DNA from: Methanobrevibacter sp.
Lineage (GTDB): Archaea; Methanobacteriota; Methanobacteria; Methanobacteriales; Methanobacteriaceae
Direction: 5' to 3'
NCBI GenBank assembly: GCA_022775905.1
Contig: JALFJX010000009.1
Coordinates: 186,001 to 250,000, forward strand
DNA length: 64,000 nt
Shown here: positions 11,113 through 64,000 of the stretch, one piece after another
How the letters are laid out: each line of letters starts with the position of its first letter
Position numbering within the stretch: the first letter of the stretch is position 1
The notes under the pieces: generated by a model
The model's input: only the letters and a program-made list of their open reading frames with translations
Told to the model about the DNA's origin: nothing
Databases searched by the model: none
Position numbers and translations under genes: made by a program

Positions 11113-11604
11113 CTAATCACCATCCTCTTTATTTCTTAATACAGTTTTGTCTGATAAATATTGTGCAATAACTTTAATCTTATCATCGGATATTTTAAAT
11201 GGTTCATCAAGGAATTCTGAAACATTGACTTCTTGATCACCAACGCAAGTTGGATGAATTGCTCCTTTTTGCCCATAAAGTGAGAATATTGGACAGAAAT
11301 CATGACAATAGTAACACACGACACATTTTTCAAGATTAATTTCAGGCACTTGATCTTTAGTCCAACCTTCAGTCAATTTAACTGGATGAGCTAATGGTTT
11401 CATTTCAACTGCACCTGTTGGACATACATTAGCACAACCAGAACATCCAATACATGCATTCTCATCAACTCTATCATCTACTTTAACTGAAAGAGTTGCG
11501 ATTTGATTTCTCATATCCATATCTGTAACTCTATCAGCTGCAAAAAAGATTCTTTTAAAGTTGGTAAATGCTCCTTCTAAAGCTATTCTAATTAAATTTC
11601 TCAT
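11113..11604 (-). CDS. ehbL: Ehb ferredoxin-type subunit with two 4Fe-4S clusters (EhbL)
   Basis: A 163-residue NuoI/HycF-like iron-sulfur protein. Two CxxCxxCxxxC motifs are visible: CIGCSGCANVCPTGA near residue 48 and CVVCYYCHDFCPIF near residue 95. The N-terminus (NLIRIALEGAFTNFKRIFF) is amphipathic and may contact the membrane arm. It is predicted to carry electrons between the small subunit and the polyferredoxin or soluble ferredoxin. It sits between ehbK and ehbM with no intergenic space. Confidence 0.93.
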   Translation of the reverse strand: MRNLIRIALEGAFTNFKRIFFAADRVTDMDMRNQIATLSVKVDDRVDENACIGCSGCANVCPTGAVEMKPLAHPVKLTEGWTKDQVPEINLEKCVVCYYCHDFCPIFSLYGQKGAIHPTCVGDQEVNVSEFLDEPFKISDDKIKVIAQYLSDKTVLRNKEDGD

Positions 11605-13011
11605 TTAAATACCCTCTATTGAATCTTTAAAATTTCTTTCGAATAAAAATGCTCTTGCAGGACATGCGTTCTTACATGCACCACAATATGTACAATTCTC
11701 TTCATTGACAACATAACAATCATCAACTTTCTCAATTGCATCATATGAGCAAGTTTTGTAACATAAGCCACAATGCATACATAATTTTTGTTCAATGAAA
11801 TTGAATCCATCTTTAATTTCATTTTTGTACATTGTAGATTTAGGAATCGCATCAACAGGACAATGTACAGCACAGTTTTCACATAATATACATTTATCCA
11901 AGTCAACTGAAATACTTCCTCTGTTAAGTGTAATTGCATCCTCCTGACACATTTCAACACAGATTCCACATGATATACAATCATCTGAAACTTTACCATC
12001 CCATGAGTGAGTCATGAACTGACGTGCATAGTCTTCATTACAAACATGCACACATTTTCCACAGGATACACAGAATCCTGCTAATGTAGGCAATTCAACA
12101 TCATTTACTTCATCATAGATGAACATCTCATCGCTTTCAGTCAATGTATTTACAGGACAGTAACTAATTGCAACATCATGGTTTGCATTTTCTGTATCTG
12201 CTGTTGGATCATATCTTAATTTACCATCGACCCTTTTATAAGATTCATTTTCACATGAATCCGCACATAATCCACAGTTTAAACATGAAACATAGGAACC
12301 ATGTGGTTTTTGATTCAATTTGTTAACCACAATAGCAAAGTCCTCAACAGAAATTGCATCATGAGGACAAGCTTTCATACAGTTAAGACAAAGTGTACAG
12401 GATTTTTTATTGACAATTTGATGTTTGTTCATTGAATTGTTCGGACAGACATCCTCACATAATCTGCATCCAGTACAAATTCCTTCATCCCTGTCAACTT
12501 TGACATGAATCGCTCCTGTCGGACAATATTCCTGACATCTTCCACATAATACACAATTTTCCAAATCTGTTCCAAAGTAGCTTCTTGTAACCAGTTTGGT
12601 TTCACTTTCTTTTTTATGAGGAACATTTTTCAATGGAGGATTTAGAATTTGAAGTGATCTGATTAAATTCAATTGTTTGTCTTTTTCAAGTTCATATCCA
12701 TCAACACGGTTTGGACAGACTTCATGACAAACTCCACAACGGGAACATATACCGTATACAACTCCATCTTCAATGATAATATTGTTTGTAGGACAGTTGT
12801 ACATACACATTCCACAGCCGTTACATTTGGCTCTGTCTACAACATATCCACCATAGCTATTTTGGAATATTGCATCATTCGGACAGTTTTCATAACATTT
12901 TCCACAAGTAAGACAACTGAATGCTTTTCCATTGATAAACTTAATAGCTTTTGTAGGACATTGATTAATACATTCCCTTTTTCCGTCACATGTATTAGTT
13001 GATAAAAACAT
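11605..13011 (-). CDS. ehbK: Ehb polyferredoxin with about 13 cysteine motifs (EhbK)
   Basis: A 468-residue polyferredoxin. I count twelve canonical CxxCxxCxxxC motifs, for example CLTCGKCYENCP, CNGCGMCMYNCP, CSRCGVCHEVCP, CVLCGRCQEYCP, CTGCRLCEDVCP, CILCENCAVHCP and CTYCGACKNACP, plus a variant first motif (CDGKRECINQCP). The number suggests up to about 12-14 clusters. It has no membrane segment or signal. It is expected to work as an electron wire or store between the Ehb hydrogenase and oxidoreductases of CO2 assimilation. Motif spacing indicates origin by repeated duplication of an 8Fe ferredoxin. Confidence 0.94.
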   Translation of the reverse strand: MFLSTNTCDGKRECINQCPTKAIKFINGKAFSCLTCGKCYENCPNDAIFQNSYGGYVVDRAKCNGCGMCMYNCPTNNIIIEDGVVYGICSRCGVCHEVCPNRVDGYELEKDKQLNLIRSLQILNPPLKNVPHKKESETKLVTRSYFGTDLENCVLCGRCQEYCPTGAIHVKVDRDEGICTGCRLCEDVCPNNSMNKHQIVNKKSCTLCLNCMKACPHDAISVEDFAIVVNKLNQKPHGSYVSCLNCGLCADSCENESYKRVDGKLRYDPTADTENANHDVAISYCPVNTLTESDEMFIYDEVNDVELPTLAGFCVSCGKCVHVCNEDYARQFMTHSWDGKVSDDCISCGICVEMCQEDAITLNRGSISVDLDKCILCENCAVHCPVDAIPKSTMYKNEIKDGFNFIEQKLCMHCGLCYKTCSYDAIEKVDDCYVVNEENCTYCGACKNACPARAFLFERNFKDSIEGI

Positions 13012-13023
13012 TATAACAACCCC

Positions 13024-13275
13024 TTATTTACTCCTTGCAAATAGTAGTTTGCCTACAAAAATTCCTATTAAAGCAGATATAAATGCAGTTGAAATTGGTA
13101 AATCTGTGTAAAATGGATAATTACCAGATTGCCATGCTACAATGATTCCTGCAATAATGATTATTACAAATGATGCTATAGTTAACTCGGAATCTCCGAC
13201 ATTTGTTTTGATTTGAGATCCTATAATTACACCTAATATCAATCCGAATATAATTGGTCCTAAACTTAACATCAT
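13024..13275 (-). CDS. ehbJ: Ehb small membrane subunit (EhbJ position)
   Basis: An 83-residue hydrophobic protein with about three membrane segments (GPIIFGLILGVIIGSQI, TIASFVIIIIAGIIVAW, AFISALIGIFVGKLLF). I recognise no enzymatic motif. The symbol is assigned from its place between the MrpB-like subunit and the polyferredoxin, matching the ehbI-ehbJ-ehbK order in other Methanobacteriales. It overlaps ehbI by 4 bp. Confidence 0.75.
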   Translation of the reverse strand: MMLSLGPIIFGLILGVIIGSQIKTNVGDSELTIASFVIIIIAGIIVAWQSGNYPFYTDLPISTAFISALIGIFVGKLLFARSK

Positions 13276-13748
13276 TCGCTCTCCTCTGTAATTTTCTTAA
13301 ATCCTGCAAATGCAATTACAATTGCAGATAATCCTACGAATACTTTTAATCCCACGAATATATTGAGGTATGGAATAATACCTGCATTGGTAACGTCAGG
13401 GTAGTGGAATGCAGTTTGTATCGCTGAAGGTACGATATTCAATATGTCTGTACCTACATTGTATAGGAAAAATCCACCAACAAATAAACCGACCAATCCG
13501 AAAATGATGAATCCTAATGCACCAACAGATTCAAGAACTTCAATATATGTATGTGAGAATTCCAATGGAGAATTACCTAATCCATATACAAGAATAGACA
13601 ATATGACTCCACTTGCTATCATAGCACCGCCTTGGAAACCTCCACCAGGAGTTATGTGTCCACCAAGAATAGTCATAATACCTAAACAGATTAATATCAT
13701 TGAGATTGGTAAAGAGACTAATTTTAAAATCATACTACCTTGACTCAT
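13272..13748 (-). CDS. ehbI: Ehb MnhB/MrpB-like antiporter subunit (EhbI)
   Basis: A 158-residue protein with about four membrane segments. The stretch GHITPGGGFQGGAMIASGVI is the hallmark of the MnhB (MrpB) family, a component of multisubunit Na+/H+ antiporters and of membrane-bound hydrogenases such as Mbh. It is part of the Mrp-like ion-translocating module of Ehb. Overlaps of 4 bp on both sides indicate coupled translation. The role in Na+ or H+ movement is by homology. Confidence 0.88.
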   Translation of the reverse strand: MSQGSMILKLVSLPISMILICLGIMTILGGHITPGGGFQGGAMIASGVILSILVYGLGNSPLEFSHTYIEVLESVGALGFIIFGLVGLFVGGFFLYNVGTDILNIVPSAIQTAFHYPDVTNAGIIPYLNIFVGLKVFVGLSAIVIAFAGFKKITEESE

Positions 13749-14023
13749 TGTTTATCCCCCAATAATCCTCTACCAAAGATAAGTAAAACCACTAAACCAG
13801 CAGTTAACAATATAATTGATTCACCTAATGTATCGTAAGCCCTGAAATCAAAAATGACAACAGTTACCATGTTTGGAGCTATTTGAGTTCCCAAAGCGTT
13901 ATAGATATTACTTACACCTGCATTAATCATGCTGCTTAAATGGAACACAGCATCTAATAATGTAACAGAAAATACTGCTGCCATTACTGCTGCGATTAAA
14001 TTACGAACTGTTTGACTAGACAA
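13745..14023 (-). CDS. ehbH: Ehb MbhE/MrpA-tail-like membrane subunit (EhbH), TTG start preferred
   Basis: A small membrane protein of about 92 residues with two or three helices and the motif FDFRAYDTLGESIILLTAG, the (D/F)xRxxDTxGE signature of the MrpA C-terminal tail and MbhE. I prefer a TTG start at 14023 (reading SSQTVRNLIAAV), which has a GGTGG ribosome site six bases upstream inside the end of ehbG. An earlier GTG at 14050 would overlap ehbG by 35 bp and has no such site. It contributes to the Mrp-like ion-translocating module. Confidence 0.82.
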   Translation of the reverse strand: MSSQTVRNLIAAVMAAVFSVTLLDAVFHLSSMINAGVSNIYNALGTQIAPNMVTVVIFDFRAYDTLGESIILLTAGLVVLLIFGRGLLGDKQ

Positions 14024-14351
14024 GATTACCACCCCAATACATGATTGCACCTATAATTGCAAGTGTTACTATTGCATAAAATAACATTTTATCCAGAGAA
14101 TCCTCTTGTTCAAGTTTGAACTTTGGAATAAGTGGAATATTAACAAGTAAAATCACTGCAGCGATTAAAGCGATTAATCCTGCAAGTAACACACTTACAT
14201 GTCTTAACAACATGATTGCCAATATAAATGAAACAATCAAGAAGATTTCTGCTGTGATACTACCGGAAACATCCGCATTAGTGACCGGACCCGGTGAGAA
14301 CAATTTTCTGAATTGTTTTACAACATCAAATATTCTGTCGTATAAGCTCAT
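14016..14351 (-). CDS. ehbG: Ehb membrane subunit (EhbG position)
   Basis: A 111-residue protein with a polar N-terminus (YDRIFDVVKQFRKLFSPGPV) followed by three hydrophobic segments. I see no motif that identifies it by itself. The name rests on its place between the NuoN/M-like subunit and the MbhE-like subunit, as in other ehb operons. It overlaps ehbF by 4 bp and ehbH by 8 bp. Confidence 0.75.
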   Translation of the reverse strand: MSLYDRIFDVVKQFRKLFSPGPVTNADVSGSITAEIFLIVSFILAIMLLRHVSVLLAGLIALIAAVILLVNIPLIPKFKLEQEDSLDKMLFYAIVTLAIIGAIMYWGGNLV

Positions 14352-15802
14352 ATTATTCCTCCTACAAAGCTAGAAATTCCGTGTACGATAGGATCTGGGA
14401 ATAAACCTAAGAGCACGATTATTATTAATAATATTCCCATAGCAAATATCATAGCGCGAGGAACCTCTTTGTTTTCAACATCTAAATCCGCTGGTTTTGG
14501 TTTTAAGAACATTGTGTAGAATGTTTTTACGAACACTACAAATGTAGCGATACTCACCATAATAGCTAAAATGGATAATTCTGGGAATCCGCAATTTAAT
14601 GAAGCTTGAACAAGCATTAATTTAGATTGGAATCCGCTTAATGGTGGAACACCAGCCATTGCCAAACCACCAATTAAAAGCATGAGACTTACTTTTGGAT
14701 GGTATGCTAAAAGACCACCAAGTTTACGTGTGTCAACTTCATTTGTTGCTTCAACGATTGCACCGAATCCAATGAATAACAATGCTGTAATAATGATTTC
14801 ATTTAATGCTTGGAAAAGACCTGCAGTAATTGCATAATTAGTTCCAAGACCAATACCTAAACCGATGAAACCTAATTCTCCAACAGCCAAGAATCCAATC
14901 ATTCTTCTGAAGTCAGTCTGGGTTAATGCGAGTGAAACACCCAAAATCATAGCTAAGACAGAGAAGAACACTATGAGAACTTCAAATATTGGTAATACAG
15001 AGTAGATTCTGTACATGATTAATACGATTGAAATCATGGAAATAACTGTAAATGATTGAAGTAAAGCTGCTCCATGAGGTTCTGCTTTTGAATAAACTCC
15101 AGATTTTATAGTATGAAATGGTGGTAAACCTGATGCATATAACCAACCAAAGAAGATTAATCCGAGTGATAATAAAAATACCGGAGATGTTACATTCACT
15201 AAACCATTGTGGACTGCAGAAACAATATCAGTTATATTTACACTACCGGTCAATGCTAGCAAGAATCCAATTCCTAAAAGCATTATAGGGCTTCCGATTG
15301 ATCCTAAAATCATATACTTTAAAGCCATTTCATAACTGTATTCAATTGATGAAGCTGCAACTATACCCACTTGTGCAAGTGCCAATATTTCAAAGAACAC
15401 AAACATGTGGAATATATCATCAGTTAAAATCATTGCAGTAACTGCTGCTGTACCTAAGAACAACAAGAACAAATAAGGCCCTGAAACTTCTTTATATTTA
15501 GTTAAATATACAAATACAACTAAAAATGTCAAAAGACCAACCATTGCAATGAATATTTGTTGCAAGAATGTAAATGAATAGGTAATTGCAGGGTGATATA
15601 CGACATTTGTCACATTATCCAATATTGGTTCATATCCTCCAAAGTAATGAAGACCGTAATTTGACAACAATGGAATTAAAGGAAGACATATTGCAACGAC
15701 AAATGCAAAAATCTTAGTAGCTTTATTGAATTTTGAAAAAGCACTAATAATCAATGCTGCCATTAATGGAACAATAACCATAAGTGGAATTAGTTCATTC
15801 AT
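14348..15802 (-). CDS. ehbF: Ehb proton/sodium-conducting membrane subunit, NuoL/M/N family (EhbF)
   Basis: A 484-residue polytopic protein with about 14 membrane helices, homologous to NuoM/NuoN and MrpD. The key features of ion-translocating antiporter-like subunits are visible: a Glu in helix 5 ([17 protein letters not shown]), a Lys in the broken helix 7 region ([20 protein letters not shown]) and a later Lys/His region ([34 protein letters not shown]). It is predicted to couple ion flow to the H2-ferredoxin reaction. It overlaps ehbE by 8 bp and ehbG by 4 bp. Confidence 0.94.
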
Positions 15803-48124: not shown

Positions 48125-48162
48125 CGTTTATTAAATTATTTATAAAAAAATAGGTGAAAATT

Positions 48163-50052
48163 ATGTCTGATACTAAAAAAGAAAAAATTATTGGAATTGA
48201 TTTAGGAACAAGTAACTCTGCTGCATCTGTGCTTGTAGGAGGTAAACCAACTACAATCCCATCCGCAGAAGGAGCAAGCCAATACGGTAAATCTTTCCCA
48301 AGTTACGTTGCATTTACCCAAGAAGGTCAAATGTTAGTAGGTGAACCAGCAAGAAGACAAGCTGTAACCAACCCTGAAAATACTATCAGTGCAATTAAAA
48401 GAAGCATGGGTACTGATCACAAAGTTACAGTAAATGGAAAACAATACTCACCTCAAGAAATTTCTGCATTCATCTTACAAAAAATCAAAAAAGATGCTGA
48501 AACTTTCTTAGGCGAACCAATCGAAAAAGCTGTAATTACCGTACCTGCTTACTTTGACGACAACCAAAGGACTGCAACCAAAGATGCAGGAACCATTGCT
48601 GGACTTGATGTTGTAAGACTCGTAAACGAACCAACCGCAGCAAGCCTTGCATACGGTCTTGATAAATCTGACAATGATGAAGACATGAACATCATGGTAT
48701 ACGATTTAGGTGGAGGTACCTTAGACGTAACCATTATGGAATTCGGTGGAGGAGTATTTGAAGTAAGAGCTACCAGTGGAGATACCCAACTCGGTGGTAC
48801 TGATATGGATAATGTATTAATCAAATACTTAGTTGATGAATTCAAAGCTCAAGAAGGTATCGACTTAATGGATAACGATCAAGCAGTACAAAGATTAAGA
48901 GAAGCTGCTGAAAAAGCAAAAATTGAATTATCCACTACCACCACTACTCAAGTTAACTTACCATTCATTGCTATGGATGCAAATGGTCCTAAAAACTTAA
49001 TCATTGATCTTACCAGAGCAAAATTAGAAGAATTAGTTGACAGTATTGTAGAAAAATCAGGTAAACCAATGCAACAAGCATTAGACGATGCTAATATGAG
49101 CAAATCTGAAATTGATAAAATTATCTTAGTTGGTGGACCTACCAGAATGCCAATTGTACAAAAATTCGTTGAAAAATTCATAGGTAAACCAGTAGAACGT
49201 GGTATTGACCCAATGGAATGTGTATCCATGGGTGCTGCTATCCAAGGAGGAGTATTAGCTGGTGAAATTAAAGATATCGTTCTTTTAGACGTAACTCCAT
49301 TATCCTTAGGTATTGAAACCTTAGGTGGAGTATCAACCACTTTAATTGAAAGAAACACTACTATCCCTACCAAGAAAAGCCAAGTATTCTCCACAGCTGC
49401 AGATAACCAACCATCTGTAGACATTAATGTATTACAAGGAGAAAGAAAAATGGCTGCAGACAACACCTCACTTGGACGTTTCCAACTTGTAGGTATCCCA
49501 CCTGCACCAAGAGGTATTCCACAAATTGAAGTAACCTTCGATATTGACGCTAACGGTATTATTAATGTAACTGCTAAAGACAAAGGAACCGGTAAAGAAC
49601 AAGCAATTACCATTACCTCCTCAACTAAATTATCTGATGAAGAAATCGAACAAAAAATCAAAGAAGCAGAAATGAATGCTGAAGCAGACGCAAAAAGACA
49701 AGAAGAAATCGAAATCAGAAACAACGCAGACTCATTAATTTACACTTCAGAAAAAACCTTAGATGAACTCAAAGATCAAGTATCTGAAGATGAAAAAACA
49801 AAAGTTGAAGGCCTTGTTAAAGAATTAAGAGAACTTATAGCTGGCGATGACGTTGATGCCATTAAAGCAAAATCCGATGAATTATCCAATGTAGTTCAAG
49901 AGATTGGTGCAAAAATCTACCAACAAGCACAAGCTGAAGCACAAGCACAAGCTGAAGCACAAGCACAACAACAAGCAGGTGCTGACCCTAACGCTGGTGC
50001 ACAAGGACAAGATGATGACACAATTGATGCAGACTATGAAGTAAAAGACTAG
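48163..50052 (+). CDS. dnaK: Molecular chaperone DnaK (HSP70)
   Basis: A 629-residue HSP70. Signatures are [19 protein letters not shown] (phosphate 1), [19 protein letters not shown] (phosphate 2), [19 protein letters not shown] (adenosine), the linker [19 protein letters not shown] and the substrate domain. The C-terminus has a Gln/Ala repeat ([19 protein letters not shown]) before an acidic end. I choose ATG 48163 with AGGTGAAAATT upstream; GTG 48154 would lie inside that site. It works with GrpE and DnaJ in protein folding and stress recovery. Confidence 0.96.
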
Positions 50053-50182
50053 ATTAAATAATAAAGTTTTATTACATTGTTAGGTTAACAACAATCAGAA
50101 TCAGAATCAATCAATAAACTAACAATAGATAAAACTTTTATTTTTTCTATCTATTTAAAATTATTTTTATTAGGGTGAATAA

Positions 50183-51328
50183 ATGGCAGACAAGCGTGAT
50201 TATTATGAAGTTCTTGGAGTAGATAAATCTGCTGATGAAAAAACAATTAAAAAAGCTTATCGTAAATTAGCCAGGAAATACCATCCAGATGTTTGTGATG
50301 AACCGGATGCAGAAGATAAGTTTAAAGAAGTAAGTGAAGCTTACGCTGTCTTGTCCGATGATGATAAACGCCAAAGATACGACCAATTTGGTCATGCAGG
50401 AATGGATGGATTTAGTGCTGAAGATTTCTATCAAAACGTAAACTTTGAAGATATTTTCCAGGGATTTGATATAGGAAACATTTTCGATATGTTCGGTTTT
50501 GGTGGAGGAGCACGTTCTAAAGGTGGAAGAGCAGGTCCTCAAAGAGGTTCAGATATCTACACCGAGATACCAATTACTTTAGAAGAAGCATTCAACGGAT
50601 GCGAAAAAGAAATAAAAATCACTAGAAGTGAATTATGTCCAACCTGCAAAGGATCTAAATCTAAACCAGGTTCCAATCCAGAAACATGTAAAGTTTGTGG
50701 AGGAACAGGACAAATCAAAGAAGTCAGTAACACATTCCTTGGACAAATGGTTAATGTAAGACCATGTAGAGAATGTGGAGGTACTGGTAAGATTATTACA
50801 GACCCTTGTGATGAATGTCACGGAAGAGGTAGTGTAAGAAAAACTAAAACAATTAAAATTGAGATTCCTGAAGGAGTTGACGAAGGAAACCACTTAAGAG
50901 TTTCTGGTGAAGGAAACAATGGTGATAAAGAAGGACTTGAAGGAGATTTAATTGTTACAGTACATGTTAAAAAACATAAGCAATTCACACGTGAAGGAGA
51001 TCACTTATACTTAGAAAAACAAATCAGCTTCCCTCAAGCAGCACTTGGAGATGTGCTTAGCATCCCAACCATTGAAGGAAAAGAAGTTGAATTCAAAGTC
51101 ACTCCTGGGACACAAAGCGAAACTGTTTACAAATTAAGAGGACAAGGTATGAACTCTGTTAGACATTCAAGCAGAGGAAACCTCTATGTGAAAGTTGTAG
51201 TTGTTGTTCCTAAAAAATTAAGTTCAAAACAAAAAAACTTACTTAAAGAATTCGCTGAAATCAGCGGAGACGAAATACAACATGTTGAAAAAGGACTCTT
51301 CGACAGAGTCAAAGATGCAATGAAGTAA
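50183..51328 (+). CDS. dnaJ: Co-chaperone DnaJ (type I)
   Basis: A 381-residue full-length DnaJ. The J domain has the HPD motif in [18 protein letters not shown]; a Gly/Phe-rich region follows ([17 protein letters not shown]); four CxxCxGxG zinc repeats lie at about residues 155-215 ([32 protein letters not shown]); and then the C-terminal client-binding domain. AGGGTGAATAA precedes the ATG. It lies 130 bp after dnaK, with an AT-rich gap that holds no obvious terminator. Confidence 0.95.
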
Positions 51329-51598: not shown

Positions 51599-54500
51599 CT
51601 ATCTTTTGACTGTAATTTTAACAGTTTTTGAAGTTGCTTTGTAGTAGGTGTTACCTACATATTTAACTCTAGCTGAGAAAGTTCCTCTTTTAGTTAATTT
51701 GGTAATTTTAAATGTAGCTTTACCTTTGGAATTGGTAGTTGCTTTATATGTTTTACCATTAACTTTGATTGTGAGTTTTGCATTCTTAATAACTTTACCT
51801 TTACTGTCTTTTAAAGTAACAGTGTATTTTTTGGTTTTTGTTGCAGCTTTGAAAGTTTTCTTAGCAGCAGTTACTTTAGATGCCTGTTTAGTGATTTTAA
51901 TTGTTGCAGTAGCAGAAGAAGCCACATAATTGTTATCACCTGCAAACTTCATTTTTAAAGTGTAAGTTCCTGTTTTAGAAGCAGAAAGTTTGTATTTTAT
52001 TACACCATTAGCATTGGTTGTGTATGTTTTAGTTTTACCATTGAATGTAATAGAAACTTTTTTATTTGCTAAAACTTTACCATTAATGTCAGTTACTTTT
52101 ACAGTGAAATAAGAACCAGATTTAACAGTAGTTAAGTAAACAGTAGAAGAAGTTTTTGCAACTACTTTACTTGCAGATTGATTTACAATAATATTACTTG
52201 TTACTTCTTTAGGTCCATAAACATCATTACCTGCAAATGAAACTACAACATCATGAACACCAGCATCAGGATTGAAATTAAATTTAACTAAACCATTTGC
52301 ATTAGTTGTAGCATTATAAACAACACCATCAATAGCTACTGAAATGACAATGTTTGAAATCGGATCACCATTTTCATCATATGCATAAGCTGAGAAAACA
52401 GCACCTTTAATGTATTCAGTAGATACACTTGGAGCTAAAATGATTACTTTAAATTCAGGAACATTATTTTCTGAAGCAACTGATTTATCAGAAACTATTG
52501 AATTTGATCCAACACCTTTTTTAGCTGCTAAATAATTATTTTTAACAGTTAAATCAGAACCAGTAGCCTCAATTGCATAGTCCCCAGTTGTTTTAATAGT
52601 ATTATTTTCTATTTCAACTTCACCATTTAAAGTTTTTATTCCAGTACCAGTAGCTGTAACATTATTCTCTTTAATTAATACATCACCTTTAGTACTAATA
52701 GCTAAAGATGTTTTAGGTAAAAGAGAATCACCAGTACTAGTTTCACCAGTTTCAGTACCAATACATTTAATATCATTAGAAATGAGTGTTGCATTATCTT
52801 TAATACTTGCTACAATACCATAAGTGTAATTACCAATTGCAACAACAGCATTATTAGAAATATATGGATTTGCTTCACTCAATTCCATACCACAAGCAGC
52901 ATATGCATTTACATTAATTGTGTTTTTATCATATGTCACATTTTCAACAGGACCCATCCAATTTGCAGAATAAATACCATAAGCACTATTTGGAGCAGTC
53001 ACAGAAATTTCATTATTCTTCACAAATCCATTTGTAGATAATGAATCAACATCAACACCATTTGCATAATATGCATCAGAGGATACTGCAATGGAGTTAT
53101 CACTTACAGAGAAGTTGTCAGCTGCAACAAAAACACCATAAATATAGCTGTGACCTTCAGCAACAATAGTGTTATTGGAAATTAAAACATTAGAACTTAC
53201 AATATTGTAAATCATATTATAATCATCATCCATATCATAATTATAAGCATCACTTTTAACACTTACAACATAAAGGGTATCATAATAACCATTTACATTA
53301 TTATATTTGAGATTTACACGATTATCAGTGAAAGTTACATTTTCACAGTAGTAGAAAACGATACCTTCAGACATGACAGTAGAAGCCCAAGTATCTGGGT
53401 CATAACCTACAGCAACAGAAGGCAATTTAATGTCAAAAGTATTATTTTTAACAACAATATTTTTAGCAGCTTTCTGTTTATCATCATCACCAGTTACAAA
53501 AATTGCATTGTTAACGACAGCACCAGTTGTATTTCCAGTAAATTTGATTTCATTGTTTAAAATAGTTAAATTTCCGATTTCAGAATAGATTGCATAACTT
53601 TCAACAGCACCAAAATTATTAACATCAATAATGTTGTTTTCAATAGTTACAGCACCTTCTTTTACAAGATTAATACCAATACCAGTAGATTCAATTCTAT
53701 TATTTCTAATTGATGTATTACCTTTAACCTTAACAGCTACAGAATTATATGGAAGTAAAGGATCCCCAGTAGGATCTGTACCATTATTGGATCCAGTAGC
53801 AACTATATAATTATTAGAAATAGTACCATTTTTTTTCATACCTGCAACAATACCTGTAGAATAGTTACCCACTACTGAAATTACATTGTTTTCAATATAA
53901 GGATTATCCTCGAATATTTCCATACCGCAGACAGCATAAGAGTTACCTATGATTGTGTTATTTACATAAGAAATATCTTGAATTGCACCATTGTATTGGT
54001 AAGAATAAACACCATAAGCACATTTTGGGGAATTAACAACAATAAAGTTATTATTTATCATACCTTCAGATGCAGGACCATCAATTGTAATTGCATTAGC
54101 ATAGTAAACATCAGAAGTTGCATTGATTACATTGTATGAAACATTGAAATCTTCAGCAGATACGAAAAGCGCATAAATATAATTGTGACCAGCAGCAGTT
54201 ATTGTGTTGTTGAAAATTTCAACATTAGAAGAAACAATAGGATTTTCTGATTCGAAGTTATAAGCATTTCCCCTTACACTTACTGCATATATAGTATCAT
54301 AAGAACCTTTTGCACTATTATATTTCAAGTCAACACGATTGTTTGTGAATTTAACACCATCACAGTAATAAAATACAATACCTTCAGAGAGAGCTTTTGT
54401 TGCCCAAGTTTCAGGGTCATAACCTACAACAACAGAAGGAATTTCTATATTGAATACATTACCATCAACAACAATGTTTGTAGAAGTAATTTCTGAATCT

Positions 54501-55132
54501 TCATCACCAGTTACACGGATAGCATTGTTTACAACAGTACCATCAGTGTTTCCAACATAATTTATTGTATTGTTTAAAATTTTCAAGTCACATACTGTAT
54601 CAGCATGAATAGCATAACCCTCATTTCCCTCAAGTGTCTTAAAATTAATTAAGTTATTTGATAAAGTTACACCAGATACACCATAAACAGTAAATATACT
54701 ATAATCAGAATGAATAAGGTTGAATCCATCAATTACAACATTATCTGCAATAACAGCAAAAGAAACACCATTAAGTGCAACATTATTACCAGATAATTTA
54801 ATAGATTTACCAATTGTCATATAACTAACATCAAGTCCAGTAAAATCTCCTTCAAATATCAATTCATCACTAGAAACATCATCTTTTAAAGTTCCAGACT
54901 CATCAAAATAATCATGGAATGTGTCTTTTGTTACTACACTAGATTGTGTTTCCGGAATTGAATCATCTGATAAACTAGAATCATCAGGATCAATTGCTAG
55001 AGCATTATCATCTTGAATCGCCTCATCGACAGCCATAGTACTATTATCATCAGACACCGCAAAAGCAGCGCCAACAGACAACAAGATTACTGAAAGTAAA
55101 ATCAAAGAGACGAAAAACCTTTTCCCTTTAAT
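51599..55132 (-). CDS. Adhesin-like protein: duplicated beta-helix region plus three Ig-like domains, probable ATT start
   Basis: About 1177 residues. The in-frame sequence before the first TTG (55105) reads GGT GGA ATT ATT AAA GGG AAA AGG and is closed by a TGA at 55142-55144. GAGGTG lies five bases before ATT 55132, giving KGKRFFVSLILLSVILLSVG followed by AAFA, a standard signal peptide. TTG 55105 would lose its basic residues. The mature protein has right-handed parallel beta-helix repeats in two related blocks (each with VGYDP-TWA, SEGIVFYYC and NRV-LKYN), then three Ig-like domains ending in a Lys-rich tail. It is probably bound to the pseudomurein surface; the ligand is unknown. Confidence 0.88.
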   Translation of the reverse strand: MKGKRFFVSLILLSVILLSVGAAFAVSDDNSTMAVDEAIQDDNALAIDPDDSSLSDDSIPETQSSVVTKDTFHDYFDESGTLKDDVSSDELIFEGDFTGLDVSYMTIGKSIKLSGNNVALNGVSFAVIADNVVIDGFNLIHSDYSIFTVYGVSGVTLSNNLINFKTLEGNEGYAIHADTVCDLKILNNTINYVGNTDGTVVNNAIRVTGDEDSEITSTNIVVDGNVFNIEIPSVVVGYDPETWATKALSEGIVFYYCDGVKFTNNRVDLKYNSAKGSYDTIYAVSVRGNAYNFESENPIVSSNVEIFNNTITAAGHNYIYALFVSAEDFNVSYNVINATSDVYYANAITIDGPASEGMINNNFIVVNSPKCAYGVYSYQYNGAIQDISYVNNTIIGNSYAVCGMEIFEDNPYIENNVISVVGNYSTGIVAGMKKNGTISNNYIVATGSNNGTDPTGDPLLPYNSVAVKVKGNTSIRNNRIESTGIGINLVKEGAVTIENNIIDVNNFGAVESYAIYSEIGNLTILNNEIKFTGNTTGAVVNNAIFVTGDDDKQKAAKNIVVKNNTFDIKLPSVAVGYDPDTWASTVMSEGIVFYYCENVTFTDNRVNLKYNNVNGYYDTLYVVSVKSDAYNYDMDDDYNMIYNIVSSNVLISNNTIVAEGHSYIYGVFVAADNFSVSDNSIAVSSDAYYANGVDVDSLSTNGFVKNNEISVTAPNSAYGIYSANWMGPVENVTYDKNTINVNAYAACGMELSEANPYISNNAVVAIGNYTYGIVASIKDNATLISNDIKCIGTETGETSTGDSLLPKTSLAISTKGDVLIKENNVTATGTGIKTLNGEVEIENNTIKTTGDYAIEATGSDLTVKNNYLAAKKGVGSNSIVSDKSVASENNVPEFKVIILAPSVSTEYIKGAVFSAYAYDENGDPISNIVISVAIDGVVYNATTNANGLVKFNFNPDAGVHDVVVSFAGNDVYGPKEVTSNIIVNQSASKVVAKTSSTVYLTTVKSGSYFTVKVTDINGKVLANKKVSITFNGKTKTYTTNANGVIKYKLSASKTGTYTLKMKFAGDNNYVASSATATIKITKQASKVTAAKKTFKAATKTKKYTVTLKDSKGKVIKNAKLTIKVNGKTYKATTNSKGKATFKITKLTKRGTFSARVKYVGNTYYKATSKTVKITVKR

Positions 55133-55290: not shown

Positions 55291-58200
55291 TTATTTTTTT
55301 ATAGTTATTTTATTTGAAACTGTACATCCACCATAAGTTGATGTAATAGCATACTTGCCAACTTTCAAGTTTTTAAGAGATACAGTAGCATAACCGTACT
55401 TATTGGTTTTAGCTGTGTATTTTTTGCCTTTGAACTTGAAGGTGACTTTTTTGTATTTTAAGATTTTACCGTATTTATTAACTAATTTAACAGAAAACTT
55501 AATTGTTTTAGCTTTCTTTTTAGTAATGCTTTTAGCTATCAAAATTGGCTTGAAAGTTATCTTACTTGATGAAGAGATTCCTTTATATTGGACAGATACA
55601 GTGTAAGATCCTGCTTTAAGTGCAATAGACTTGTATGCATAACCACCCTTATCTGTTTTAACACTGTAAGATTTGCCATTTACTTTAATAGTTACAATTT
55701 TACCTGCAACAGCATATTTACCGGTATCATCTTTAATGCGAACTTTATACTTGATTGTGTTTCCATAATAAACCGAACTGGTTTTATAAAGAGTAATTGC
55801 CGGTTTATAGGTTACAGTCAAACTAGATTCTTTACTTGAAGATTCAAAAGTATTGGAGTCATCTGAAATGTTGGCAAGCATTTTATAACTGCCAATTGTA
55901 GTAGGTACTTCTGCATTAAGTGTAGCTACACCATTTTTATCTGTTTTTGCCATTCCCACATAAACATATCTACCTTGGAATTTGTAAAATTTGACTGTAA
56001 TTCCAGATATAGGATTTCCATCAGCATCTTTTACAGTAGCTATGAATTTACCTTTATTTCCAATATATGCAGACACATCATTAAAAGTAACATCCAAAGA
56101 GCCTTCTCCAACATATAAAGTAGAAGATAACTCATTAGATAAATAGTTATCCTTAGTAATTATTGCATTCACTTTGTAAGTAGCCGGATCAAAATCAGAA
56201 CCCAATTTATATTTTAATGTTGCAACACCATTTGAAGAAATTGTACTTCCAATTTCCTCATCACCAATGTAAAACTTGACCAATGCACCATCAACATCAA
56301 CATTTACAGTAATATTTACAGTATCTAAATATTTACTAGACACTTCATCAAATGAACCATTAAACACATAAACATAATTACCATTAATGTTATTACTGTC
56401 TGAATTATTGATAGCTGCATTTCCACTGCCTTTTTCAGACATCAGATAATTATCCGCAATTTCATTATTAACTGCCAAATCATCAACAAGCACTGCATAA
56501 CCTTTTACTGAAGTGAAATTATTACATCTAATCACATTATTCAAAGACTTGGATTTAATGTAAACAGCAGCAACACCACTACCAACAGAATCATAAATCC
56601 TATATGTTATCTTTTCACCAGTTACATTATTCATGATAATATTTTCCAAAATAATGTTATTTTCCGCATTGGAAAGTACCATACCATACGCTTGTTTAGC
56701 TTTTATGTCAAATTTATTTCCATTAATAATATTATTGTTAGAAGTGAATGCTTCAAGTCCATAAACAATATCTGAATTTAATGTGAAAGCATTATCTTTA
56801 ATAGTTGAATTTTGAGACATTTCTAAATTAATACCATATGAATAATTCATAGATTTTGCACTGACATCATTACCAATAATTATTGTACTTTCAGATGAGT
56901 CGCCAATGACCAAACCTTGGACAAAATATGTTCCTTCTAAAACTATTTTATTATTAATAAATTGATTATCAGTTGCACCTTGACCTTCAGGAGCATCATG
57001 ACCAGTGTAATATCCTAAAACACCCATTCCATAAATATAAGTATCATTAGCTTTTATGTAAACTTCATTATTTGAAAATACATTATTGTGACTATCATAA
57101 TATAAATCAATACCTACAACAGAGTTTGTTGACAAGTTATTATGACCACTAACAGAAGAATTGGTTGAACTTGCAGTTTTACTTAATTTAGATGTGACAT
57201 TTACTTTGTTTCCAGAAACATTACATCCAGATGAATAAGTCATCAATATACCATAAGTCCTGTATACTTCCCTTAAAACATGGTTTCCAGTTATTGTATT
57301 TCCACTTGTACATACTGACCCATCTGCACAAACTGAATTGCCATCAGCACAGTTAGTACTACCATCAGTACAAACAGAATCCCCACCAACACAAGAAGAA
57401 CCATCCACACAACTACCATCAGTACATACTGTATTTCCATCGGCACAGTTAGTGTTTCCATCCACACAGGTAGAATTACCATCTACACAATGATTGCTTT
57501 CAAATCCATGTTCAATACCAGTTCCCACAGTATAAATTGTATTGTTGATGAAATTACAGTCTTCAACAGATATTGCAAGCAATGTGTAAGTTAAATAATT
57601 ACCGCTTGAAGTCAATGTATTGTTTATGACATCCACATCACTGGATTCAACAACATAAATTGCATAAGCAGCATTTGGATCTGTCACATCAATAGTACAA
57701 TTTAAAATTTTTGCACCACAAGTATTGTAAACAAGAATTCCCCATGCATTAATTCTTTCGGAATTTTTATTTTTAATAGTGAAATTTTCAATCCAAACAC
57801 CATCTGACAATCTGAATGTTGTATTGGTGAATGTTGGATTACTTCCAGTTAATTTAATAGCCGCATTAACATAGATTACACCAAGATTTATGAAATTCCC
57901 TTCAAATGATAAAATATCACCATTCTTAACTGAAGGATTTAATGTACCTCCAACATCGAAGTAATCATTATAATTTTCTGGAGTTACTGTATACACAGCA
58001 CCATTGAATATATATTTAGGTTTTGATGGGTCATAAGTACCTTCCGGAGTTACTACATTACCCTTACCTTTAGGAATCTCATTATCTTCAATAGTATTTT
58101 CAGTTGATGAATCAATATCGCCCGCATTAATTGCATATGAGTTTCCAGTTGCAATATAATTATCAACAATAGTTACATTTCCAGGCATTTTCTTAGCACT

Positions 58201-59466
58201 TTCTTTTGTTATTAAAACACCCACACCAGAATTACTTGTAATATTGTTACCAATTACATGCAATTCAACAAAATTGCCTTTCAAGAAAACTCCGGCTCCT
58301 AAATTAGTACTTACATTATTGTTTTTAATAGTAACATTATTTCCAGCAGCCTGAATACCATATCCTGAAGATATAATCTCAATAGAATTATTTTCAACAA
58401 CAACGTTAGTTCCAGCATAAATTCCGGCAAAACCTGAAAGAACATTTGCATTTACAATTGTGTTGTTTGCTATTATTGAATATGAAGAACCGACAATTGC
58501 AAATTCTCCTCCAGATACAACATTAGGATTATTGTAATCAGCACCAGTGACATTTACAATTTTATTGTTAATTATTTCATTATAATTACCATCAGTAGTT
58601 GCAATACCTCTAAATGCACCAATGACAATGTTAGAATCAATTTTGTTATTTCCACCCATAACTTGAATACCATAAGCCCATGAAGTTGGCAATACATTAT
58701 ATTTTATAGTATTATTGTAAATTAAATTATAATTGGAAACACCACCTTTCAAAGGACCTCCATCAAATTTGGACAAATATATTGCATTTGCATCATCACA
58801 ACTGATTTGATTGTTTGCAATGTAATTATGATGAGCACCACACAAGAGAACAGGAGATGTGGATCGGGTTCCCTGACCATAAGTTATACCATAAGTGTTA
58901 AAAACATTATTTGTTATGTTGTTGTAATTTGCTTCATTAGCTATACAAATCGCATAGGAAGACATTCCAGTATTATTAATGAAACAATCTTTTACAGTAC
59001 AATTTATTACACCATTCAAAAAGATTCCATAATTATAATCTTTATTATTGGCAATTTTCAAACCAACAATAGAACTTCCATTAGCACCATTAGTAAATGT
59101 AAAAATACAATTTTTCATGGTTTTAGATCCAGAATAAACAACATTTACAGTTTTATTAAACTTAAATTCCTTATTATTCCAATCTCCAGTTAATTTGATT
59201 GTATCCCCAGAATTAACCTTGGAAGAAATTAGATTTCCATTACTACTAAAATAAGTGGAATAATCATCCGAACTTATCTCATATGTAACAGGTTCACTTA
59301 ATAAATCACCATCAGAAGAAAATAATACTTCATCAGATAATGAATTATCTAAAATAGCATCATTACTACTTACAGTTTCATTTAAATCATCACTAGCACA
59401 TACACTAGCCATTGAAATAAAAATAAGTAATAATAAAACTAATAAAAAATTAATTTTTTTAACCAT
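55291..59466 (-). CDS. Adhesin-like protein: beta-helix with a ten-cysteine repeat and C-terminal Ig-like domains
   Basis: A 1391-residue secreted protein. Signal peptide KKINFLLVLLLLIFISMASV ending in CA, then an acidic linker. Two YF-x-x-x-G-x-L-type caps (YSTYFSSNGNLIS, YNDYFDVGGTLNP) each lead into parallel beta-helix repeats rich in NNxI, GNxI and IxNNT steps. Near residues 660-720 a Cys-Asp-Gly repeat interrupts the helix (CVDGNSTCVDGNTNC type). The last 300 residues are three Ig-like domains (DVTFNDVSAYIGNKGKFIAT, AITLYKTSSVYYGNTIKYKV) with a Lys-rich end. The ATG at 59466 has GAGGTAT upstream. It is a likely cell-surface adhesin; the ligand is unknown. Confidence 0.9.
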   Translation of the reverse strand: MVKKINFLLVLLLLIFISMASVCASDDLNETVSSNDAILDNSLSDEVLFSSDGDLLSEPVTYEISSDDYSTYFSSNGNLISSKVNSGDTIKLTGDWNNKEFKFNKTVNVVYSGSKTMKNCIFTFTNGANGSSIVGLKIANNKDYNYGIFLNGVINCTVKDCFINNTGMSSYAICIANEANYNNITNNVFNTYGITYGQGTRSTSPVLLCGAHHNYIANNQISCDDANAIYLSKFDGGPLKGGVSNYNLIYNNTIKYNVLPTSWAYGIQVMGGNNKIDSNIVIGAFRGIATTDGNYNEIINNKIVNVTGADYNNPNVVSGGEFAIVGSSYSIIANNTIVNANVLSGFAGIYAGTNVVVENNSIEIISSGYGIQAAGNNVTIKNNNVSTNLGAGVFLKGNFVELHVIGNNITSNSGVGVLITKESAKKMPGNVTIVDNYIATGNSYAINAGDIDSSTENTIEDNEIPKGKGNVVTPEGTYDPSKPKYIFNGAVYTVTPENYNDYFDVGGTLNPSVKNGDILSFEGNFINLGVIYVNAAIKLTGSNPTFTNTTFRLSDGVWIENFTIKNKNSERINAWGILVYNTCGAKILNCTIDVTDPNAAYAIYVVESSDVDVINNTLTSSGNYLTYTLLAISVEDCNFINNTIYTVGTGIEHGFESNHCVDGNSTCVDGNTNCADGNTVCTDGSCVDGSSCVGGDSVCTDGSTNCADGNSVCADGSVCTSGNTITGNHVLREVYRTYGILMTYSSGCNVSGNKVNVTSKLSKTASSTNSSVSGHNNLSTNSVVGIDLYYDSHNNVFSNNEVYIKANDTYIYGMGVLGYYTGHDAPEGQGATDNQFINNKIVLEGTYFVQGLVIGDSSESTIIIGNDVSAKSMNYSYGINLEMSQNSTIKDNAFTLNSDIVYGLEAFTSNNNIINGNKFDIKAKQAYGMVLSNAENNIILENIIMNNVTGEKITYRIYDSVGSGVAAVYIKSKSLNNVIRCNNFTSVKGYAVLVDDLAVNNEIADNYLMSEKGSGNAAINNSDSNNINGNYVYVFNGSFDEVSSKYLDTVNITVNVDVDGALVKFYIGDEEIGSTISSNGVATLKYKLGSDFDPATYKVNAIITKDNYLSNELSSTLYVGEGSLDVTFNDVSAYIGNKGKFIATVKDADGNPISGITVKFYKFQGRYVYVGMAKTDKNGVATLNAEVPTTIGSYKMLANISDDSNTFESSSKESSLTVTYKPAITLYKTSSVYYGNTIKYKVRIKDDTGKYAVAGKIVTIKVNGKSYSVKTDKGGYAYKSIALKAGSYTVSVQYKGISSSSKITFKPILIAKSITKKKAKTIKFSVKLVNKYGKILKYKKVTFKFKGKKYTAKTNKYGYATVSLKNLKVGKYAITSTYGGCTVSNKITIKK
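57310..57489 (-). repeat. Cys-Asp-Gly tandem repeat inside the large adhesin
   Basis: Ten cysteines are spaced 7, 7, 7, 5, 6, 7, 7, 7 and 6 residues apart, with units such as CVDGNST, CADGNTV, CTDGS and CVGGDSV. The period of 5-7 residues differs from the 20-25 residue steps of the surrounding beta helix. The DNA also repeats, so the stretch probably grew by slippage. Confidence 0.85.
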
Positions 59467-59607: not shown

Positions 59608-62600
59608 TTAATAATCATCATAATCTTCGTCTTTTTGATCTCTAACGTATCCAACCAAGAAAATTGCAATTAATATAATAATAGCAATTATAACAAATAT
59701 TGGCATACTGGATTCAGATGAAGCTGCGGATTTTGAAGCAGATTGTTGAGATAATTCATATGCATTAGCACCAGATTCTCCTGATGAAGAACTTGAAGCA
59801 TCAGATTGTGAAGCAGATTTTGCATCACCTGTTTGGGATGCATCTTGACCTGCAGATGTTTTACCACCAGAACTACTACTTGATTGTTTTTCAGCATTAG
59901 TTCCATTGCCCAATTCCTGTGCATTTTTATTATCATCAGTTGTGGAATCCTTTTCATCCATTTCATACAACGGATCAGTGTTTGTAGCTTCAGCCAATAT
60001 CTTTGCAAACTGTGCTTTTTGAGCAGCAGTCAAAGAACTTGCTTGAATAATTTTCATATTAAAATCTAAATTCTTACAAGTGTGGTGACAACATGCAACA
60101 CCATATTGAAGAACTTGTTGCATATATGCGTCTGCAATCTTTTGAAGTGTTTTGCTGTCTGCAGCCCAAGTACCTTGAGTTCCAAGATAAAACATGTGCG
60201 CAAGAGAAGACTGCAAACCTACAGAAGTACTTGCACTGGTAACACTACTCTGCAAACCTAATAAAGTATCAGTCATTTGATTTCCCAATTCAGTATTTAA
60301 CTTATTGTTACTTACAGTCAATAAACCAAATGTATTCTGCATTCTAGATGCAATCCAGTTCATACCTGCAGCAGTTCCTTTAAGAGGTTCCAGATATTTT
60401 GGATTTAAAAGAGTTGTTCTAAGTTCAAACTCCATTTCATCCTCATATGATCTAGCAACATATCTGTTTTTGTCACGTATATCTACAAATGAAGTGTCAG
60501 GCCTACTTAAACCATCTCTTTCCCTCAAAATTGAAGCAGCATTGTATAATCCACCAAACCAATCATAGTAATCATCAGAATCTAAAATTCTCCATGTACT
60601 GTCAAGGTTTTGAGTAATTAAATCTGTCTTTTTAAGGAGATACTCATAGGTATCTTTTTGTTTACTGATTTGAATATTACCATCTTCATCAATAGTCCAC
60701 GCAAATGAAACTGTATCCAAATAAGTGTTCATTCCAACTTCATTAACAGTTGAAATATTCCATTCAGAAGTACTTGGAATAAGAGTACTCATACCAGTTC
60801 CCTCAAGAACATTACCTGAAAGACCAAATATCCTGTCTAGTGTAGGATTTTCATTATAATGTTTTATAACATAATTATCCTCTTCTGTCTCATTAGCATT
60901 TGCAGCCAATCTTGTAGCAGTCACCATCCAAGTTATCCAATCTTTATTACTGGTTACAGTACTTGCATATACATCAATTCTAGGTCTGTTGACTACAGAA
61001 CCATTACTTAAGGTCACTGTTAAATTTTCCAAAGGAAGTAATTCAACACCAATAACTTTTCCATTTTCAGACCATACTGGTTGACATCCTAAGAGATATA
61101 AGAACTCAGCAATACCAATTCCTTCAGTTCTTGAAATTTCAGTACCCCACAAGATCAATGCAGTCATTTCAGGCCATTCACCATGTTCTTCATAATATTC
61201 TGAAAGCAACAAGTCCACAATTTTAACTGCAGATTCATAAGCTGCTTTAGAAGGCATTTTTGTTGAGTCAGATGCATATCCATCATATCCAGTAGGAATA
61301 GAATCTCCATATGCTGGATCTGCAAGTAAACCAGCTTCAACATAACCACCAGACAATGCAGTGAGAATTGCATTCCATTCATTGTTGTTCTGGATGTTTA
61401 CAATAACCTGTGCAGCATAACTTATTGAATTATATAAAGAACTATTCTTATCAATTCCCAATTTATCAGCCAATTCATCAACAGAAGATCCATTGACTAA
61501 TTCATCAGCAATATTCTGCATGAAAGCCTCAATTGCATGACGTTCAGTTAAATAGTTTACATCTGATTGAATATCACTATAGAAATCCTTGCCTTTGAGT
61601 TCAGGATATAGGAATTCCATGATTTGATTATAGATTTTAGTTTGAGAAGTTACAATTGTAACAACTTCACCAGACAATTCATCACCAGTTAAAACCTTAC
61701 CTAAAGTATGCAAACCATATGTAATGAAATCATCAGCCATGTTTTCAAGATAAAGATGCAATTCATCCAACCAGTCATCAAAGGATTCACCTTCAGACAT
61801 ATTCCTAAAACCTAATGATGGAGCCAATTTAAGAATTTTTTCCCTGTACACTTCCGCATTGGAAGTTACATTAAGTTTCATTTGATCCTTGTAAGAAGTA
61901 ATATAATTATTCAATACAGAATAGTTACCATATAACTCTGAATTTACAATAGCTGGAGTCATGTGAGTAATAACCATTGCAGAACTTCTATCTCTTGCAA
62001 CCATAGCTTCTCCAGGGTTAGATACAATATATGGATATATTGTTGGAATCTTGGTTAATTCAAATGACCAATCACCTTCACCAACACCTAAAGTTTTACC
62101 AGGTAACCACTCCAATGTTCCGTGAGTTCCCATACTTACAATTGCATTTACACCAGCAACCTTATCCAACCATTCATAGAATGCAACATACTGTTGATGA
62201 GGAGCCAAGGTCAAATCATGATAATCTTCAACAACTTCTGTAACATTAGCTTCTTCCCAACCTCTACTTGGCTGATATGTAATGAAAATATTACCTAACC
62301 AGAAACCTGGGATAACTAAATATTGTTGACCATCATCAGCAGTATAAACCATACATTTACCTAAACCGGCACCCCATTGAGTAACCATTTGCTCATATAA
62401 ACTGTCAGAAAGATCATCAGTCAAGTTAATGAAATCATCCATTGATATTAATTGATGATGTTCAACAAGACTATCCCAATTTCTTTCAACATATTCCTTA
62501 AGAACACCTCCAGCCCATGAACCTTTGTTGCCATTATCAAATAGCAAATCACTGAACTCTGTTATATTCATCAATTCACTGATATTGCAAGTAGTATAAC

Positions 62601-64000
62601 CTGCTTCATATAACTTGAGAATCAAATCATAAGTACTTTGCACTACATCCAAATAAGATGCACCAATTTCCGCCTTACCTGCAGGATAGTTGTAGAGGAC
62701 TATAACAATTACCTTTTCAGAGTTCTCCAAATCCTTTAAATCAGCCCATTTACTGCTGAGCTGAACCATCTTATCCACACCAGATTGAATAACATGAACT
62801 TTCCCATTATCATCAACATAGGATAAAATAACCGGACTGAATACTCCTTCAAAACTTGGATAAGTTACAGAATATGTCCATTCTGTTTGAGGCCCAAGTG
62901 TACTTTCATAACTGGATTGTGAAATTTCATTTACTCCTTTAAGGATTTCCACATCAATATCAGATAAATCGCTTTCTGCAGTACCATTAGCATAACTTAA
63001 AGACCAACTATATAATGAAACCATAGAAGAGATTCCTACTTTTGAGATATTGTTAATTTTATTCAATATTGAAGACATTGAAGGGTTTGTAGAAAATTTA
63101 AAAATATTAAATGCAGGCCTACCAACATCCTCAAAACCTCTAATCAAGGAATCAACTACGTCTCCACCACAATAATAAGTAACGATAGCTATGAATTTTG
63201 TATCTGGATCGAATTTTTCGATAAAAGCATATTCAAACTGTTCAAATAATGAAGTAGGATCTAAAACCTCTTCAAACCAGTCAGAATAGTCTTGAACCAT
63301 CCAATTTAAACTACCTTTTCCATCACAATTATAACCAGGATTTTTCTTAATCCATTGATTAATTAAACTACCTTCTGGTGATATTGTATAAACACCTAAA
63401 TCTGGATGATAAAAACCACATTCAGCACCCATTTGAGGAGCATTAGCATCGTCAAGAGTAGGATTTTCGTATTTTGACGGATTAATCAAATAATAAACAT
63501 ATTTCAAGTAATTTTCCATATTATGATACAAAACATCAGATGAATTAATATCTTCAGCCTGGAAATATGATCCAATATATGTATTTTCAATTGTATGATA
63601 CGTATTGTTATTTGAACTTGCACCAACAATGTGCAAACCTGTTGAATTTAAAATACTATCACTATAAACACCAAATGTATATGCAACATTATAATTTGCA
63701 TTAGCCGGAGCAACTGCAAGCAACTGCTTTAGTTTTTCAGCAGTAAATGCAGTATATGAACCTTCAGCAAACATGTCAATATGAATGAACTTTGCATTTT
63801 CAACCAACCATTCCCTAGATGAATCATAGTTTCTAACATCAATATATGCAACACGTTTGGACATATTCATTAAAACATTGATTTTTTCCTTATGAGAAGT
63901 ATAATCAACTAACAGCAAAATGTCCGGAATGAAATCAAATGAACCTTCCAAAGTACCTGATTTTTTAGTAAAATCAAGAATTCCTGAAGATTGAGTTTCA
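59608..64000 (-). CDS. CobN/magnesium-chelatase-H-like protein with C-terminal membrane anchor, 5' end outside the window
   Basis: At least 1463 residues are visible; the frame is open to the right edge (upstream residues TQSSGILDFTKKSGTLEGSF), so the TTG at 63951 is not the start. The sequence matches the CobN/BchH chelatase large subunit family: VSMGTHGTLEWLPGKTLG, YPYIVSNPGEAMVARDRSSA, MTALILWGTEISRTEGIG, and GVACCHHTCKN near the end. After a Ser/Gln/Ala-rich linker there is one membrane helix (MPIFVIIAIIILIAIFLVGY) and a short charged tail. This implies display outside the cell. Whether it still inserts metal into a tetrapyrrole is unknown. It lies upstream of the adhesin genes on the same strand. 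Confidence 0.88.
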   Translation of the reverse strand, partial: ETQSSGILDFTKKSGTLEGSFDFIPDILLLVDYTSHKEKINVLMNMSKRVAYIDVRNYDSSREWLVENAKFIHIDMFAEGSYTAFTAEKLKQLLAVAPANANYNVAYTFGVYSDSILNSTGLHIVGASSNNNTYHTIENTYIGSYFQAEDINSSDVLYHNMENYLKYVYYLINPSKYENPTLDDANAPQMGAECGFYHPDLGVYTISPEGSLINQWIKKNPGYNCDGKGSLNWMVQDYSDWFEEVLDPTSLFEQFEYAFIEKFDPDTKFIAIVTYYCGGDVVDSLIRGFEDVGRPAFNIFKFSTNPSMSSILNKINNISKVGISSMVSLYSWSLSYANGTAESDLSDIDVEILKGVNEISQSSYESTLGPQTEWTYSVTYPSFEGVFSPVILSYVDDNGKVHVIQSGVDKMVQLSSKWADLKDLENSEKVIVIVLYNYPAGKAEIGASYLDVVQSTYDLILKLYEAGYTTCNISELMNITEFSDLLFDNGNKGSWAGGVLKEYVERNWDSLVEHHQLISMDDFINLTDDLSDSLYEQMVTQWGAGLGKCMVYTADDGQQYLVIPGFWLGNIFITYQPSRGWEEANVTEVVEDYHDLTLAPHQQYVAFYEWLDKVAGVNAIVSMGTHGTLEWLPGKTLGVGEGDWSFELTKIPTIYPYIVSNPGEAMVARDRSSAMVITHMTPAIVNSELYGNYSVLNNYITSYKDQMKLNVTSNAEVYREKILKLAPSLGFRNMSEGESFDDWLDELHLYLENMADDFITYGLHTLGKVLTGDELSGEVVTIVTSQTKIYNQIMEFLYPELKGKDFYSDIQSDVNYLTERHAIEAFMQNIADELVNGSSVDELADKLGIDKNSSLYNSISYAAQVIVNIQNNNEWNAILTALSGGYVEAGLLADPAYGDSIPTGYDGYASDSTKMPSKAAYESAVKIVDLLLSEYYEEHGEWPEMTALILWGTEISRTEGIGIAEFLYLLGCQPVWSENGKVIGVELLPLENLTVTLSNGSVVNRPRIDVYASTVTSNKDWITWMVTATRLAANANETEEDNYVIKHYNENPTLDRIFGLSGNVLEGTGMSTLIPSTSEWNISTVNEVGMNTYLDTVSFAWTIDEDGNIQISKQKDTYEYLLKKTDLITQNLDSTWRILDSDDYYDWFGGLYNAASILRERDGLSRPDTSFVDIRDKNRYVARSYEDEMEFELRTTLLNPKYLEPLKGTAAGMNWIASRMQNTFGLLTVSNNKLNTELGNQMTDTLLGLQSSVTSASTSVGLQSSLAHMFYLGTQGTWAADSKTLQKIADAYMQQVLQYGVACCHHTCKNLDFNMKIIQASSLTAAQKAQFAKILAEATNTDPLYEMDEKDSTTDDNKNAQELGNGTNAEKQSSSSSGGKTSAGQDASQTGDAKSASQSDASSSSSGESGANAYELSQQSASKSAASSESSMPIFVIIAIIILIAIFLVGYVRDQKDEDYDDY

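Follow-up and report, generated by a model that had tools for sequence, protein, structure and literature searches.

The window, by which we mean the whole stretch of 64,000 nucleotides of Methanobrevibacter DNA analysed here, carries on its minus strand a gene for an adhesin-like protein of 1391 aa (55291-59466; open reading frame, translation and Pfam). The protein is predicted to be secreted, on the evidence of a putative signal peptide in its translation: the N-terminus is hydrophobic, as seen by eye, and may act as a signal or anchor sequence (MVKKINFLLVLLLLIFISMASVCA, 59392-59466, minus strand). Two beta-helix segments follow on the same strand, one covering residues 471-655 (57502-58056), with a regular coil pattern and an AlphaFold2 pLDDT of ~90 or more, and the other residues 726-1030 (56377-57291), with a pLDDT mostly >90 in a model that ends at residue 955. 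C-terminal Ig-like (Big) domains occupy 55294-56097 (minus strand). In Pfam, Beta_helix (PF13229) reaches 73.7 bits for a cut-off of 25.9, NosD also exceeds its cut-off, and so do Big_1 (PF02369, 62.3 bits) and Big_3_5 (PF16640, 55.7 bits). This layout of hydrophobic N-terminus, right-handed beta-helix and Ig-like domains is shared with the adhesin-like proteins of Methanobrevibacter and Methanosphaera (PMC11532034), from which the present protein differs by a Cys-Asp-Gly array within one helix turn, carried by one orthologue per genome; the survey of these proteins describes the beta-helix and archaeal Big domains and does not mention a Cys repeat (PMC11532034). The downstream neighbour encodes a second beta-helix/Ig adhesin-like protein (51599-55105, minus strand; open reading frame and Pfam) that has no such array, and none was found in the other beta-helix adhesins of the source genome. 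Upstream, at a distance of 141 bases and on the same strand, lies the gene for a CobN/BchH-family surface protein with a C-terminal transmembrane helix (59608-63999), which runs off the window and forms a 1615-aa frame in the genome (L071:12312-17156).

The array covers residues 660-719 of the host protein and contains ten Cys. Its first Cys codon lies at 57487-57489 and its last at 57310-57312 on the minus strand, so that the codon positions return exactly the span of 57310-57489 that the initial annotation had given for a ten-Cys repeat. The units, of the general form C-x-(D/G/S)-G, read CVDGNST, CVDGNTN, CADGNTV, CTDGS, CVDGSS, CVGGDSV, CTDGSTN, CADGNSV and CADGSV, with lengths of 7, 7, 7, 5, 6, 7, 7, 7 and 6 residues, followed by a last unit that begins with the tenth Cys. 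Eight of the ten have the C-x-D-G unit proposed earlier, the remaining two being C-V-G-G and C-T-S-G, and the lengths agree with the proposed period of 5-7 residues. The description of Cys as very rare elsewhere in the protein was too strong, since 13 lie outside the array, but they are indeed sparse there (~1% of those residues, against 17% in the array). Ten Cys within 66 residues did not occur in any of 20,000 shuffles of the protein, whose maximum was 9, and the nine observed C-x-[DS]-G motifs compare with at most four in any shuffle. Together with the recurrence of homologous arrays in orthologues, these shuffles exclude a chance origin, and the same recurrence excludes misassembly as the source of the array. 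At the DNA level, the array of the window is old and degenerate: a tandem-repeat finder reports only 2.7 copies of 21 bp, and the Gly codons vary across units between GGT, GGA, GGG and GGC while the amino acids stay constant. The initial annotation took DNA-level repetition to suggest length variation between strains; the variation in length seen here is between species.

With the flank downstream of the array as query, orthologues were found in 55 of 67 congeneric genomes, and in 35 of the 37 of good quality, with a single orthologue in each of these genomes but one and an identity of 72-34% over the downstream beta-helix segment. Named matches are nearly all Methanobrevibacter, many of them from the guts of animals such as goat, deer and buffalo. 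At least one Cys is present at the same turn in all 54 genus orthologues that have both flanks, the arrays ranging from 1 (a single K-C-I-D) to 25 Cys. A sister genus of the same family has arrays of 15 to ~36 Cys at the same position, and the shared proximity of these loci to DnaK/DnaJ genes shows that the positions correspond. In the window the DnaK and DnaJ genes are at 48154-51328; their nearness to the adhesin cluster, common to the two genera, provides a synteny marker. No arrays were found elsewhere in the phylum, so that 2 of 20 genera carry them; an array-less version of the protein occurs in one Methanobacteriaceae genome (L183) and two Methanosphaera genomes (L184, L185). Repeat number varies, as had been anticipated, and within the four-species clade of the window the counts of 10, 9, 7 and 4 Cys indicate that it shifts fast while the motif is held. 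Short arrays of 1-4 Cys characterise a basal group and some scattered cases, and their presence in a basal clade implies that a long array is not essential.

Several further observations concern these loci. In genome G019, two gene copies flank a cobN-like gene (L107:1754-5785 and 11007-15584), with arrays of 16 and 2 Cys. A contig labelled 'uncultured Acholeplasmatales bacterium' (L148, CAJOOI010000130.1) carries an orthologue of Methanobrevibacter type with 59% identity and is probably misbinned. Fragments of a group II intron-type reverse transcriptase were seen by eye near the locus in genome G014 (L140:4059-7809). Other apparent carriers of arrays, namely proteins of ~605-647 aa in the two genomes examined and one fragment of 375 aa, proved to be YhgE/Pip-like membrane proteins with D-G-S repeats. 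A phage origin was rejected, there being no phage match and two weak plasmid matches of <45% identity.

Across the 54 arrays, the Cys content is 8.8%, compared with 0.76% elsewhere; of the 409 array Cys, 86% have an Asp two residues on (C-x-D) and 94% a Gly three residues on (C-x-x-G). Of 485 (D/E/N)-Gly spacings, 419 are of 7 residues, and the Cys spacing is for the most part 7 or 14. Two architectures can be distinguished, one with a Cys in each heptad, as in the window, and one with a Cys in every second heptad (C-I-D-G-N-E-L-V-I-D-G-K-S-Y). Arrays of this second type form one supported clade, and architecture tracks phylogeny. When units were compared in pairs within arrays, synonymous-only differences were found at 34% for Cys, 38% for Asp and 48% for Gly, with amino-acid change in 0-6%, against 30-54% at the variable unit positions; the conservation of Cys is partly built into this comparison, in which Cys and Gly served to pick the units. 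The unbiased evidence for Cys therefore comes from units located by D/E/N-G alone, which nearly always start with Cys in the every-heptad type or show a C-V-C-V alternation. These codon and orthologue comparisons show that purifying selection acts on a position-conserved, length-variable Cys-Asp-Gly heptad array, which two genera share in a single orthologous surface protein. The circumstances that the initial annotation had named as undermining the feature (absence from relatives, misassembly, unconserved Cys and Asp) were all examined and none held.

The insertion of the array in a beta-helix, with a period unlike that of the helix, is borne out by the orthologue comparison and by the predicted structure of the flanks. 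The structure prediction that had been proposed as a check succeeded for these flanks, which form a confident beta-helix with pLDDT mostly >90, but not for the array, which has no confident fold (pLDDT <50 in two models). In the model, a five-residue strand at residues 173-177 precedes the array, and the next long strand, at 267-276, comes after it. Because the array fills a turn that in most other coils has 0-3 residues, it is a lateral arm rather than a helix coil. An AlphaFold2 model of the every-second-heptad type, of low confidence, consists of short strands split by two-residue Asp-Gly turns, and Foldseek matches of the models are essentially beta-helix proteins. Either a beta-roll or a hairpin stack would expose the Cys of 7-residue units on one face. 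The array units resemble the x-x-D-G-T/S repeats of PF20606 (DUF6799), whose cut-off is passed by the sister-genus arrays and one every-heptad array; the array of the window, at 16.4 bits, falls under the cut-off of 26.8. Cys modules of the LDL-receptor class A, EGF and toxin types were rejected as composition matches (E 0.014-1 for the window array; Ldl_recept_a 8.4 bits for a sister-genus array, cut-off 24.1).

The arrays are strongly acidic, with a net charge of -15 per 100 residues compared with -0.5 elsewhere, and this acidic-thiol composition, and more weakly the CobN-family neighbour, appears to favour metal chemistry. Concerning the state of the thiols, the 54 arrays comprise 27 with an even and 27 with an odd number of Cys. 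The evidence on exported oxidoreductases covers VKOR, which was not found in the source genome, and DsbA-fold proteins, of which there is one, without a visible signal peptide and cytoplasmic-looking. The equal parity and these two results argue against obligatory disulfide stacks; the disulfide stacks suggested in the initial annotation are thus spoken against as far as obligatory pairing is concerned. Taken with the anaerobic habitat, they favour free thiols, short of proof.

We tentatively propose that the array is a lateral, reduced, acidic thiol ladder that may bind metal ions of the soft or borderline class on the cell surface, a putative role which we consider quite possible without calling it probable. 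A heptad-repeat arm would be extruded from one turn of the cell-surface beta-helix, and each unit, x-x-(hydrophobic/N)-Cys-(hydrophobic)-Asp-Gly in sequence, would combine a short strand with a turn at Asp-Gly, placing Cys beside carboxylates at regular spacing. The thiols would probably be free under the reducing conditions of gut or rumen, and the ladder could bind Fe2+, Ni2+, Co2+ or Zn2+ in competition with sulfide. The gain and loss of heptads, which is seen among the orthologues, might serve to tune its capacity. The upstream CobN-family protein, whose adjacency is established, could speculatively be a partner in the handling of metals or tetrapyrroles.

It can alternatively be hypothesised that the array is a stiff beta arm, built as stacked hairpins or as a left-handed beta-roll, in which the Cys of the ladder form disulfides inside the arm or between molecules and which extends or joins adhesins. 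The regular period of 7 or 14 residues and the short strands and Asp-Gly turns of the low-confidence model are consistent with such an arm, as are the scores of the every-second-heptad arrays against the grass antifreeze beta-roll family PF21300 (LbR_Ice_bind; 71.2, 55.0, 37.6 and 36.8 bits, cut-off 30) and the Lolium structure 3ult (4e-6), scores which repetitive queries inflate. The heptad or 14-residue period is shared with that beta-roll, but the array of the window differs from it by its units of 5 and 6 residues, which fit poorly in a fixed 14-residue coil, and it gave no match to PF21300 at E up to 10. The grass antifreeze motif is not known to contain a ladder of Cys and Asp-Gly. As the equal numbers of odd and even Cys counts, the missing VKOR and exported DsbA and the anaerobic habitat also weigh against cross-linking, we hold a mechanical arm to be rather unlikely.

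Exposed free thiols, as predicted by the parity and redox arguments, could also exchange with disulfides of mucin or of partner cells and make the array a putative covalent sticky pad. The architecture of a surface adhesin and the gut and rumen hosts among the named relatives would suit this role; strict C-x-D-G spacing and acidity, however, are not needed for thiol exchange, and rumen contents have no mucin layer comparable to that of the colon, so that we judge it improbable. A similarly low likelihood is given to a putative arm in which Asp-Gly turns bind Ca2+, or stacked hairpins bind glycans, with Cys as a packing residue. Asp-Gly is present in nearly all units, and the every-second-heptad arrays are similar to glycan-binding hairpin repeats with solved structures, a resemblance whose scores are inflated by repetitive queries. 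Against it, the window array has no such match, no calcium-repeat family reaches its own cut-off, and Cys is conserved at least as much as Asp and in strict phase; a role in Ca2+ binding only would leave these Cys unexplained. The least credible reading is a hypervariable low-complexity insert in which slippage repeats only vary the surface or its antigenicity and Cys is carried along, since the fast divergence of number, spacing and unit sequence among close species (10, 9, 7 and 4 Cys) is opposed by Cys, Asp and Gly codons with many synonymous and almost no amino-acid changes, by a position conserved across two genera and by the lack of such arrays in the other beta-helix adhesins of the genome.

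For the metal-binding ladder that we prefer, the gene context deserves consideration. The CobN-family protein has an N-terminal signal-like segment and matches PF02514 over nearly the full profile (622 bits). Of the 55 genus loci, 47 have its gene next to the array gene, and at the other eight the contig ends nearby. It shares PF02514 with the class 1 chelatases HmuS, CobN and ChlH, and hydrophobic segments at both ends with HmuS, a member of the same superfamily that takes the iron out of heme in gut bacteria, bears transmembrane helices at both ends and is reported to contain a conserved His pair (PMC12583661); the authors of that study call the archaeal use of HmuS homologues unclear (PMC12583661). 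It differs from these systems in that no array is known there and in that it scores well below the NCBIfam equivalog cut-offs for CobN (491 against 1619 bits, and similar) and BchH. The array-less outgroup L183 also has an adjacent CobN-family gene, and no such gene was found within the flanking DNA examined of the long-array loci in the sister genus. An obligatory partnership is thereby ruled out, each occurring without the other, and the CobN link is to be taken as suggestive context only. In the sister genus, a MotA/TolQ/ExbB-family gene directly follows the array gene (L128:11311-12054, L129:6991-7731 and L130:6314-7045; assigned at two loci by Pfam and at the third by sequence), and a conserved small membrane protein of 172 aa is encoded near the array genes; small membrane proteins at L137 2860-3818 look like its counterparts in the genome of the window. 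An ExbB/MotA partner was rejected for the source genome, where both copies lie elsewhere, and the neighbourhood of the window yielded no metal-transport gene. The more far-reaching proposition, that an expandable surface thiol-carboxylate ladder in gut and rumen methanogens captures transition metals, or metal freed from tetrapyrroles by the adjacent CobN-family protein, and that such a metal-acquisition device is undescribed in archaea, appears doubtful at present. In our search, which covered open papers, no description of such Cys arrays was found.

Rumen and gut methanogens devote a large part of their genomes to adhesin-like proteins, of which hardly any has a known ligand. The protein described here is a conserved, single-copy and syntenic adhesin with a chemically explicit feature whose thiols and metals are directly assayable. 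If the proposed role is true, such capture of metal at the surface would be relevant to the supply of Ni, Co and Fe to methanogens in sulfidic guts, and also to targets for methane control.
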